This document shows positions 7,934 through 11,013 of a stretch of 64,000 bases of DNA, piece after piece. The stretch is from positions 124,001 through 188,000 of the forward strand of contig NZ_BPIJ01000001.1 in NCBI RefSeq assembly GCF_026004055.1, in the 5' to 3' direction. The DNA comes from Meiothermus sp. GTDB lineage: Bacteria > Deinococcota > Deinococci > Deinococcales > Thermaceae. Below the pieces are notes generated by a model that was given only the letters and a program-made list of their open reading frames with translations, did not search any database and was not told the origin of the DNA. The translations under genes and the position numbers were made by a program. Positions within the stretch are counted from its first letter, which is position 1. Every line of letters starts with the position of its first letter.

Positions 7934-8884
7934 ATGCGTCACGCGGAACTGGCTTTCACCGGCCCGGCCACCTTCCTCAAGGCTCCCCACCGCCCCCTTT
8001 CCGAACTTTGGACCGCCGACGTGGGCCTTTTGGGCCTGCCCTACGACTTTGCCGTGGGCTACCGCCCCGGTGCGCGCTTCGCGCCGGGTGCCTTGCGCGA
8101 GGCCAGCGGACGCTACGCCCCCGGCCCCGAGGGCTACTTCGACCTCGAGACCGAGACCTACCGCCTGCAGGGGGTGCGCATTGTGGATGCGGGCGACGTG
8201 GATCCGGTTCAGCTCGAGTACACCGAGACTTTCCACCGCATCACCCTGGCTGCCAGGGCCCTGCGCAAGCGGGTGCGGCTCCCGGTGTTTGTGGGGGGCG
8301 ATCACTCCGTGAGTTACCCCATCCTGCGGGCCTACGACGACCTGGCGGAGCTTTACGTGGTACAGCTCGACGCCCACCTGGACTTCTCGGATAGCCGCAA
8401 CGGCACCAAGTATTCCAACTCGAGCCCCTTCCGCCGCGCCGCGGAGGAGGTGCCGGGTCTGAAGCACATCACCACCATCGGCCTGCGCGGCCTGCGCACC
8501 AACCCCGAGGCCTACGGGGCGGCCAAAGCCAGGGGCCACACGCCGATTACGGCTTCCAGGGTGCGGGAGAACCTGCCCTGGGTGCTGGACCAACTCCCGC
8601 GGGGCAAAAAGGTCTACCTGAGCTTCGACGCCGACGTGCTCGACCCCTCGATTCTGCCCGGCACCAGCAGCCCCGAGGTGGAGGGGCTTTCGTATGCAGA
8701 GGCCATGGCGGTGGTGCGGCGAGCGATAGAGCAAAACAAGCTGGTGGGCTTCGACTTCGTGGAGCTGGCGCCCAACCTGGACAGCAGCGGCCTCTCGGCG
8801 CTGGTAGGAGCGCGGCTCTTGGCCGAGGTGCTGTGTGAGTGGGCCTCAGGTGCTAACGGGTTCGGCCTGCAGCCTGAGCCCTAG
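7934..8884 (+). CDS. Agmatinase/arginase family ureohydrolase
   Basis: The 316-residue protein carries the dimanganese signature of ureohydrolases: GGDHS, DAHLD and SFDADVLDPS. Members hydrolyse agmatine, arginine, formiminoglutamate or guanidino acids to release urea or formamide. The loop usually containing SHGTPFRR reads SNSSPFRR, so a substrate-contact His is Asn, and the substrate may not be agmatine. AGGAG lies 7 nt ahead of the ATG. The 3' end overlaps the convergent integrase-antitoxin gene by 39 bp, and the last residues may have been altered when the island arrived. Confidence 0.85.
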   Translation: MRHAELAFTGPATFLKAPHRPLSELWTADVGLLGLPYDFAVGYRPGARFAPGALREASGRYAPGPEGYFDLETETYRLQGVRIVDAGDVDPVQLEYTETFHRITLAARALRKRVRLPVFVGGDHSVSYPILRAYDDLAELYVVQLDAHLDFSDSRNGTKYSNSSPFRRAAEEVPGLKHITTIGLRGLRTNPEAYGAAKARGHTPITASRVRENLPWVLDQLPRGKKVYLSFDADVLDPSILPGTSSPEVEGLSYAEAMAVVRRAIEQNKLVGFDFVELAPNLDSSGLSALVGARLLAEVLCEWASGANGFGLQPEP

Positions 8885-9376
8885 GGCCTTGACCACCTTC
8901 ATCACCGTGGCAAACGCAGGATTGCCCTCACCGGAAAGGGCTTTGTACAGGCTTTCGCGTGAAAGCCCGGTCTCGCGCGCTACTTGCGACATCCCTCGAG
9001 CCCGGGCGATATCGCCCAGTGTGGCGGCGATCAGCGCCGGGTCGTCGTCTTCCAGGCAAGCCTCGAGGTTCTCGGGTAGGGGGTGCTCGAGTACCGTCTT
9101 GTACAAAAACAGCAGGGCCGAAAGCGCTACGTTCTGGGTGGAGGCCGATACGTTGTCTTCGGTAGCCAGGTGGGACAGGTAAGCCCGGATTTCCTCGACC
9201 TCCATCACCTTTGGACGGCGCTTGCCGTGAAAGCGAATGAAGTCTAATATGCAATACACATACGAGGTTTCGGTGCGTTGGCTCATGTGCTTGAGCCTTA
9301 GAACACTGCGAACCTCGTTGAGGAAGGGGGAAGTTTTGGGCGAGTACCGTTTCTGGCTATTGGGAATATCGGACAT
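8846..9376 (-). CDS. Chimera: integron integrase N-terminal domain fused to antitoxin-like HTH
   Basis: The ~176-residue protein has two unrelated parts. Residues ~10-95 match the core-binding (SAM-like) domain of integron integrases: SQRTETSYVYCILDFIRFHG, then a YLSHLA segment and VSASTQNVALSALLFLYK. Residues ~100-172 match the HigA-like addiction-module antidote family (DDDPALIAATLGDIARARG, ARETGLSRESLYKALS, GNPAFATVMKVV). The tyrosine-recombinase catalytic domain is absent, so recombination is not possible; DNA binding and repression remain plausible. It is divergent from the cassette genes as intI normally is. Start ATG 9376 is preferred; GTG 9388 is possible. No partner toxin gene is adjacent. 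Confidence 0.8.
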   Translation of the reverse strand: MSDIPNSQKRYSPKTSPFLNEVRSVLRLKHMSQRTETSYVYCILDFIRFHGKRRPKVMEVEEIRAYLSHLATEDNVSASTQNVALSALLFLYKTVLEHPLPENLEACLEDDDPALIAATLGDIARARGMSQVARETGLSRESLYKALSGEGNPAFATVMKVVKALGLRLQAEPVST

Positions 9377-9378
9377 GA

Positions 9379-9408
9379 CGTATAACACCCTAATACGGGT
9401 GTTATACG
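9379..9408. promoter_or_regulatory. Perfect 12-bp inverted repeat over the integrase-fusion promoter
   Basis: CGTATAACACCC (9379-9390) and GGGTGTTATACG (9397-9408) are perfect inverted arms around TAATAC. On the minus strand the spacer gives TATTAG, a plausible -10 box for the gene ending at 8846. Symmetry and position fit an operator for the gene's own HTH domain. It could alternatively be part of the attI recombination region. Confidence 0.65.
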
Positions 9409-9437
9409 ACAGCGTGACATTTAATCACTAGTTGGGC
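9409..9437 (+). other. attI-like recombination site
   Basis: GTTGGGC (9431-9437) fits the integron core consensus GTTRRRY. It lies between the divergent integrase fragment and the first cassette gene. Its bases are the exact reverse complement of GCCCAAC at 10348-10354, the expected relation between the start of a cassette and the R-double-prime box of its own attC. Confidence 0.65.
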
Positions 9438-9447
9438 AGATTGAACG

Positions 9448-10398
9448 ATGAACAGCGACAAGATCGAGACCTTGCTTGAGCGGATTGCAGTTGCACTGGA
9501 GCGACTAGCCGGGCAGCCAGATCACCGTAGGGCGTTCTCCGAGGGCTCTCACAGTGGCGAGGGCGCCGAGGAGGTCATCGCAGATCCCTCGGATCGGAAC
9601 TCCAGCCCCCGCCCTTTCTCAGTTCTGGAACCCTTCCTTAATTCCAGAGGAATCCGGATCAAGGCGAGGGCTGCCGATGACCCAGCCGATCAGGTGATCG
9701 ATAGCCTGTCGCTGTTTCTCGGAGAGCATTATGATGCCCTCTCGGGTCTTCTCGGCAAGATCAAACGCGCTATGCAGAATGGAATGCCGATCACCGAAAG
9801 CCTGAAGGGCCGCGCGCAACAAGACGTTAGCTCCACGTGCCAGTTTTGCACGCGCCTTCACGAGGTTGCGTTCCTTGAGGAGTACCAATACTTCCGTTCA
9901 CCCATTTACTTGATCAAGGCTAAGACAACAACTCTACCGAGGGCACAGCGCTTCTTCAGCGGGCAATGGTTAGAGCGGTTCGTTCTCCAGAAGGTCAAAG
10001 CAGTTTATAATCAGGTTGCCGCAGAGGTTACTGGGGAGCTAGGATTCGAGTATCTCATCAACCCTCAGATCACTCTACCCAACGGTGACGATTTCGAACT
10101 GGACGTCCTCGCGGCAATAGGCTCGAATGTCTACTGGATCGAAGCTAAGTCCGGTGACTACCAGCAACACGTGGCTAAGTACTCTAAGTTTGCTCGCCTT
10201 CTTGGCCTCGATTTCGATCATTCTTTGATGGTGCTGACGGATGCGCCTGATGATCGCTGCTCTGCGCTCTCATCGCTGTTCTCGATGACCGTTTGTAATC
10301 TGAGAATCTTCGAGGAAAAGTTGCTGGCGATCGCACGAACCGACACTGCCCAACAAAGCGCTGCAGCGGGCGGGCTGACACTCGCCGCCGAGCGCTAG
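9448..10398 (+). CDS. Cassette gene 1: Card1/DUF1887-like PD-(D/E)XK nuclease domain protein
   Basis: This is a 316-residue protein. Residues 5-22 form a leucine-rich helix, and 131-134 a CxxC. The C-terminal third (about 170-295) reads like the endonuclease domain of Card1/Can2 proteins: GQWLERFVL (Glu176), FELDVLAAI (Asp219) and WIEAKSGDY (Glu232, Lys234), the D-ExK pattern of restriction-like nucleases. A CARF sensor domain is not evident in the N-terminal part. Codon usage lacks the CTCGAG-rich habit of neighbours. The gene starts 10 nt after the attI-like core and its stop lies inside the attC, as in an integron cassette. Function as a defence nuclease is inferred. Confidence 0.7.
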   Translation: MNSDKIETLLERIAVALERLAGQPDHRRAFSEGSHSGEGAEEVIADPSDRNSSPRPFSVLEPFLNSRGIRIKARAADDPADQVIDSLSLFLGEHYDALSGLLGKIKRAMQNGMPITESLKGRAQQDVSSTCQFCTRLHEVAFLEEYQYFRSPIYLIKAKTTTLPRAQRFFSGQWLERFVLQKVKAVYNQVAAEVTGELGFEYLINPQITLPNGDDFELDVLAAIGSNVYWIEAKSGDYQQHVAKYSKFARLLGLDFDHSLMVLTDAPDDRCSALSSLFSMTVCNLRIFEEKLLAIARTDTAQQSAAAGGLTLAAER

Positions 10399-10406
10399 CA
10401 TTAGGC
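10348..10406 (+). other. attC recombination site of cassette 1
   Basis: This 59-bp site has the order R-double-prime GCCCAAC (10348-10354), AGCGCT (10357-10362), a GC-rich centre, AGCGCT (10391-10396) and ATTAGGC (10400-10406). The two AGCGCT boxes pair and the outer boxes nearly pair. Length and box layout fit attC sites (57-141 bp). The final core has A instead of the usual G at the crossover. The stop codon of cassette gene 1 lies within it. Confidence 0.7.
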
Positions 10407-10424
10407 GACAACGAGCATACGAAG

Positions 10425-10877
10425 ATGAAAATTACCCGCACACAACAAGACGTCGGTTCAGGCAAATGGATCGGATGGCACATCCTTACTGTGGGAGAGG
10501 CTGGATTCTCGATGCTCGATGTTTACGGCCGCCATTGGCATGGGCTTGATCTGCAAGTCATCGAGCAGTTCGCGGAGCGCATCAACCAGAATAACGAGTC
10601 TGGCAGCCTTCACCCTCGGGCGCCGATCAGTGCGGTTCCAAAGTGTTTCTTCCGCGACTACGCTGATTCGCGCAACCCGCAAGTCCTTGGCGAGTTTAGG
10701 CGGCACATCGCTGAGTTCCTTGATGCCAACCGCACTACCATTCACGCGAAGCAGTTGCTTGTTGATTTGCACGTTTCAGATCAACCTGTCCCGACACAGT
10801 ATCTTGACGCTGTCGAGGAGGTTTTGCGATCCCAAGGGCAAGAGTCCGGCATAGAGGAGGTCGTAATTTTCACATGA
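10425..10877 (+). CDS. Cassette gene 2: orphan protein of unknown function
   Basis: The 150-residue product is not recognised. It begins with a beta-rich, Trp-containing part (KWIGWHILTV, FSMLDVYGRHWHG). Helices follow at ~42-60 and 88-103, with a closing EEVLRSQGQESGIEEV helix and strand. It has no signal peptide or membrane segment, so it is probably cytosolic. It lies 18 bp after the first attC and is followed within 6 bp by a second attC-like site, the usual position of an integron cassette gene. Base composition matches cassette gene 1 rather than the host. Whether it works with the nuclease upstream is unknown. Confidence 0.65.
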   Translation: MKITRTQQDVGSGKWIGWHILTVGEAGFSMLDVYGRHWHGLDLQVIEQFAERINQNNESGSLHPRAPISAVPKCFFRDYADSRNPQVLGEFRRHIAEFLDANRTTIHAKQLLVDLHVSDQPVPTQYLDAVEEVLRSQGQESGIEEVVIFT

Positions 10878-10882
10878 CGAGT

Positions 10883-10946
10883 GTCAAACAAGTTGGTTGA
10901 GCGAACCGCCGCCCCACTTCACGGTTCGAGAGCCGCTGGCTTCGGC
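10883..10946 (+). other. Degenerate attC-like site of cassette 2
   Basis: GTCAAAC (10883-10889) resembles an R-double-prime box and CTTCGGC (10940-10946) a core site. Between them CGAACCG and CGGTTCG form a perfect 7-bp stem. The 64-bp length suits attC. Both outer boxes deviate from consensus (the first should complement TTAGGC), so the site appears decayed. Confidence 0.5.
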
Positions 10947-11013
10947 GATGCGCCCTGATAGTAGGGAGGTAAGGTTGTTATCATGGCGGGGTGGCTGTTT
11001 CTCAGTTCTGTCG

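Follow-up and report, generated by a model that had tools for sequence, protein, structure and literature searches.

A Can2-type nuclease without a CARF domain, carried as the first cassette of a Meiothermus chromosomal integron, and its multi-phylum relatives

Can2 and Card1 are CARF-PD-(D/E)xK ancillary nucleases of type III CRISPR systems (7bdv, 8q3y, 6wxw), known as effectors that are switched by cyclic oligoadenylate. In Can2, the CARF domain spans residues 3 to 151, activity requires E276 and D278, and the accessory motif, also present in VC1899, is built of four helices and two strands (PMC7969007). VC1899, a DUF1887 protein of Vibrio cholerae (1xmx), is reported to have its key active-site residues and yet to be inactive in vitro (PMC7969007). 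Cdn1, the CARF-domain dual-activated nuclease (8z4i/9u49), is gated by cA3/cA4 through its CARF. Integrons, in turn, are established as stores of anti-phage cassettes (PMC12409362).

We analyzed a 64,000-nucleotide stretch of a Meiothermus sp. genome (referred to below, at its full length, as the window), in which a predicted nuclease gene lies next to an integrase remnant (Table 1). Its product shares with Can2 and Card1 the accessory motif and nuclease core, including GGW(L/F)E and the E-x-D...E-x-K signature. Unlike them, it has no CARF, begins with a helix and a linker, lies outside any CRISPR locus, and is borne on an integron.

Table 1. Features of the nuclease cassette and its surroundings, in window coordinates (a slash within a site marks the crossover)
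Feature	Position	Strand	Basis or remark
Truncated intI: N-terminal domain of the integron integrase (residues 22-105) with an in-frame fusion to an HI1420-type addiction antidote HTH	8846..9388	-	
attI region, core ...GTGACATTTAATCACTAG/TT, crossover 9431/9432	9360..9431	+	Comparison with G002, G014, and G015
Gene cassette 1, 969 bp, begins TTGGGC	9432..10400	+	Border common to the cyanobacterial (L104) and spirochete (L108) copies
Predicted CARF-less Can2/Card1-type nuclease gene, 316 aa	9448..10398	+	ORF list, profile searches, AF2 model, structure alignment
attC of cassette 1: R'' GCCCAAC (10348-10354), R' ATTAGGC (10400-10406)	10348..10406	+	Overlap with the nuclease gene at its 3' end
Gene cassette 2, 613 bp, at G/TT of attC 1	10401..11013	+	Missing from the same locus in G007
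Cassette 2 ORF, 150 aa, no family match	10425..10877	+	Pfam/NCBIfam/PADLOC searches

The nuclease half and the missing CARF

The first-pass annotation of this DNA had read the gene as a Card1/Can2-type PD-(D/E)xK nuclease without a CARF, and it had placed the motifs GQWLE (E176), ELDVL (E217/D219), and IEAKSG (E232/K234) correctly, far above chance. The catalytic D-ExK residues are retained in homologues: in an alignment of 37 relatives drawn from many phyla, no substitution occurs at G172, W174, E176, E217, or D219, and E232 and K234 are conserved in at least 90%. In a profile alignment, the active sites pair one to one, with E217/D219/E232/K234 of the window protein corresponding to E276/D278/E291/K293 of Can2. 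The PADLOC models CARF_PDDEXK and Csx1 match residues 142 to 254 (about 1e-7; 2.5e-7) and thus recognize solely the nuclease half, and one or the other is matched by all 37 family members scanned (best, 3.5e-17). No Pfam or NCBIfam model exceeds its cut-off for the window protein, PF09002 alone giving a weak match below the Pfam threshold (E = 0.011), while a search with the family profile retrieves Can2 (6e-7), Cdn1 (7e-7), Card1 (5e-6), and VC1899 (2e-5).

The AlphaFold2 model (pLDDT 86.8) consists of a helix at residues 3 to 22, a disordered linker at 23 to 54, and a compact part from about residue 58, comprising the accessory motif (~58 to 163) and the PD-(D/E)xK core (~164 to 297), followed by a tail encoded by attC. 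With VIA-align 2, residues 58 to 297 superimpose on Can2 141 to 365 (Z 17.6, rmsd 3.3, 201 aligned); Cdn1, with the same nuclease half (Z 16.8), VC1899, which shares both accessory motif and nuclease (Z 15.7), and Card1 (Z 12.3) also score well above unrelated rows (~7.5). These four proteins are the only Foldseek matches to the model at E < 1e-3, and the assignment to the Card1/Can2 type is upheld by structure alignment as well as by profile search.

Residues 58 to 300 correspond to all of Can2, VC1899, Cdn1, and Card1 apart from the CARF, including the helical motif with two strands that precedes the nuclease core (58 to 163, aligned with Can2 from 141). The ~57 residues ahead of this shared part, a helix and disorder, stand where a CARF of ~140 residues would be. 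VC1899 retains that domain and Cdn1 is gated through it, whereas the window protein has no domain able to bind cyclic oligoadenylate.

Two proposals made earlier for the N-terminal part fared less well. Residues 1 to 165 had been taken for a different sensor or substrate module, but residues 58 to 165 match the accessory motif found in Can2 and VC1899; the middle region is therefore not a new sensor, and the missing piece is the CARF alone. A CxxC noted in the same region does exist (C131/C134), but it is not a conserved feature; because C131 is replaced by T in most relatives, we dismissed the pair as a zinc or other conserved metal site. From motifs and fold, we predict that the gene product is a stand-alone metal-dependent PD-(D/E)xK nuclease.

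Carriage on a chromosomal integron

The nuclease gene is proven to occupy the first cassette position of a Meiothermus chromosomal integron, and the integron carriage proposed in the first-pass annotation is borne out at the nucleotide level by divergence at attI, by an attC junction in another genome, and by the borders of copies in other phyla. Next to intI, the attI sequence is identical in the window and in three other Meiothermus genomes (G002, G014, G015) through CTAG/TT, beyond which all of them differ; sequence common up to GTGACATTTAATCACTAG/TT and divergent thereafter therefore fixes the attI crossover. At the other end, the same gene remnant and attC in G007 run straight into a hydrolase gene, and the window has 613 bp extra exactly at G/TT. 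This insert, cassette 2, occurs only in the window's Meiothermus genome among 18 searched.

DNA similarity of the window to copies in Gloeomargaritales (L104) and Spirochaetia (L108) begins exactly at the core of the cassette (9431) and stops where the cassette does (10393/10399). The L104 copy lies within an array and is flanked on both sides by GTTATGT/ACATAAC sites, and the L108 copy carries the covarying pair GTTGAGC/GCTCAAC. These attC-type sites were identified by eye; a regex attC scan with an energy threshold returned no match in L104 or L108, the threshold being too strict. The R''/R' boxes are complementary (GCCCAAC/GTTGGGC and GCTCAAC/GTTGAGC), and the bottom strand of the cassette 1 attC takes an attC-like hairpin shape, with a fold energy that is not significant against shuffles (z -1.1). 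Meiothermus copies outside integrons keep the C-terminal DTAQQSAAA tail and have lost the R'' box. The tail had been considered as an argument against an attC; it is overruled by the G007 junction and by a similarity to L104 and L108 that spans exactly the cassette.

The integron occupies a fixed chromosomal site in Meiothermus, adjoining an agmatinase-like gene (window 8846-9388, L067-L071). At the same locus, intI is full length in G002, G007, G015, and G006; in the window it is reduced to its N-terminal domain, and a functional integrase in cis is lacking. Between intI and attI lies an inverted repeat, TATAACACCC-TAATAC-GGGTGTTATA (~9381-9406), which is partly kept in related integrons and is possibly an operator of intI. 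No sigma-70 promoter turned up in a scan at attI, and no RNA in an Rfam search of the region. The first cassette of the G002 integron (L067:5139-7709) encodes an 856-aa N6-methylase-type, restriction-modification-like protein, possibly another defense cassette at position one.

Large integrons commonly hold toxin-antitoxin cassettes, and the window cassette could be of an addiction or toxin-like kind, in which a mildly toxic nuclease stabilizes the array and has no direct anti-phage role. The HI1420-type antidote HTH fused to the adjoining intI remnant would fit such a role, as would the HicB-like UPF0150 domain of a sister branch (see below). The cassette has no antitoxin gene, however, its relatives have no conserved partner, and close relatives persist singly at unrelated chromosomal sites, and we regard an addiction role as very improbable.

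A patchy family of relatives

Relatives were recovered solely through genome searches and the family alignment. Queried with the single sequence, collections of genomes, viruses, plasmids, and phages returned none, and a second scan of viral contigs, made with the family alignment, was equally without relatives. The genome-wide alignment scan yielded 64 loci, hosted by Cyanobacteria, Chloroflexota, Pseudomonadota, Bacillota, Bacteroidota, Spirochaetota, Acidobacteriota, Deferribacterota, Armatimonadota, Synergistota, and one archaeon; within Chloroflexota, a family member is present in 5 of 400 genomes. Most relatives lie outside defense islands, and no recurrent partner gene was found among them.

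In the tree, a clade with support of 98/97 covers Deinococcota, Cyanobacteriota, Spirochaetota, Pseudomonadota, and Bacillota. The window protein groups with L104, L108, Gammaproteobacteria, Clostridia, and other Meiothermus copies, distant from a chromosomal form found in Thermaceae, and it is 77 to 78% identical to the cyanobacterial and spirochete copies versus ~24 to 34% to the Thermaceae form. The cassette has moved between phyla: a cyanobacterium and a spirochete both carry it, so the nuclease module has spread by itself.

N-termini vary across the family. Most relatives from the genome-wide scan carry a short LLERIAxALERIA helix, and cyanobacterial relatives have apparent transmembrane helices, as judged from sequence. 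The relatives thus constitute a family of CARF-less Can2-like nucleases that is scattered patchily over many phyla and whose N-termini are interchangeable. Three Fretibacterium proteins (L120, L124, L125) reach ~600 aa; in these, the nuclease module is preceded by a long, repetitive N-terminal part and a MarR-like wHTH.

The Thermaceae chromosomal form, a 370-aa protein, has the same middle and nuclease module as the window protein; it differs in carrying a HicB-like UPF0150 domain (PF21748, E 1e-13 to 1e-15) in place of the short helix and in being chromosomal and vertically kept. Its N-terminal 69 residues match TTHA0281 (2dsy; Z 12.1), and this domain, present in the chromosomal homologues of Thermus and Meiothermus, is absent from the window protein. 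These homologues are conserved chromosomal genes in all Thermus-like genomes surveyed, in most related genera, and in some Meiothermus. The fusion gene (L016-L030, L038-L055) lies before murJ in Thermus and in an arginine operon in Meiothermus. Conservation of the UPF0150 branch beside arginine-biosynthesis and murJ genes suggests a housekeeping function in that branch, and the module may be used otherwise than for defense in at least one lineage.

By extension, the window gene could encode a Thermaceae nuclease with a housekeeping or DNA-repair function, captured by an integron by chance, a reading in keeping with the presence of the UPF0150 branch in every Thermus-like genome surveyed and most related genera, in metabolic or cell-wall neighborhoods. 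That branch did not, however, give rise to the window protein. The protein belongs to a cross-phylum clade far away from it, its identities point to the cyanobacterial and spirochete copies rather than to the Thermaceae form, and nucleases of its type are rare and patchy elsewhere. Chance capture of a housekeeping gene is therefore unlikely.

A link to CRISPR is partial. The first-pass annotation had seen no CRISPR locus, which holds locally, but the genome does encode Cas10/Csm1 on another contig; cyclic oligoadenylate may thus be made in the cell. Relatives in CRISPR contexts (L130, L133, L135, L110, L122) include three on Chloroflexota contigs that adjoin cas10 together with a csx14-like or ring-nuclease-like gene (matches below curated cut-offs), one of these contigs also carrying csx15 and csx10. 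A further relative adjoins cas1 (Thiomargarita), and another has two CARF-HEPN genes nearby (Methanobrevibacter). In Chloroflexota, a wider sample gave no support for a broad CRISPR link: the three further loci read are solitary.

These neighborhoods, and Cas10/Csm1 in the window's own genome, would fit a split sensor-effector in which the protein supplies the nuclease and is activated in trans by a separate CARF protein that binds cyclic oligoadenylate. The CRISPR-linked relatives are distant branches, though, and the close relatives stand alone as cassettes, or are genes without a CARF neighbor; the csx14 and ring-nuclease matches also fall short of curated cut-offs. For the window copy, we consider a split system quite improbable.

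Proposed role and significance

The reading that we favor, and hold to be fairly probable as a whole, is a CARF-less Can2-half nuclease on a mobile cassette that dimerizes through its helix and serves in defense. The N-terminal LLERIAxALERIA helix would hold the dimer, assuming the dimerizing role of the CARF. The nuclease would nick or degrade DNA, possibly RNA, with Mn2+/Mg2+ via E217/D219/E232/K234, and within its own chain it would not be gated by a cyclic nucleotide. Its biological role would be defense against phages or other mobile DNA. Mobility, patchiness, the position as first cassette, and the partial CRISPR linkage favor defense, and anti-phage defense by the window copy is plausible. 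Weighing against it are the lack of a recurrent partner gene, the position of most relatives outside defense islands, the absence of members from the phage and plasmid collections and from two scans of viral contigs, and the housekeeping function suggested for the UPF0150 branch. Like the anti-phage cassettes of chromosomal and mobile integrons (Darracq 2025 and Kieffer 2025, reviewed in PMC12409362), the window cassette is small and holds a single gene; it occupies position one and is a candidate. No Can2-type nuclease is among the anti-phage cassettes mentioned in the consulted sections of that review.

CARF-less relatives of Can2 have no description in the literature searched, most subscription journals being outside its reach, and no library searched describes such a nuclease, so that the label "undescribed" given at first pass still applies. 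As a tentative generalization, the nuclease half of Can2/Card1 might be an autonomous multi-phylum module whose N-terminal regulators vary, borne on integrons and, in some type III operons, working as part of a split sensor-effector.

A mobile effector half without a CARF raises the question of how the nuclease is controlled in the absence of a second messenger, and the CARF-less family likewise poses the question of whether the CARF was gained or lost. One cassette is shown in three phyla with its borders at base level, and Deinococcota join the hosts whose chromosomal integrons carry candidate defense cassettes. If the tentative generalization above is true, these proteins would represent a CRISPR-independent family of anti-phage nucleases that has the Can2 effector in common.
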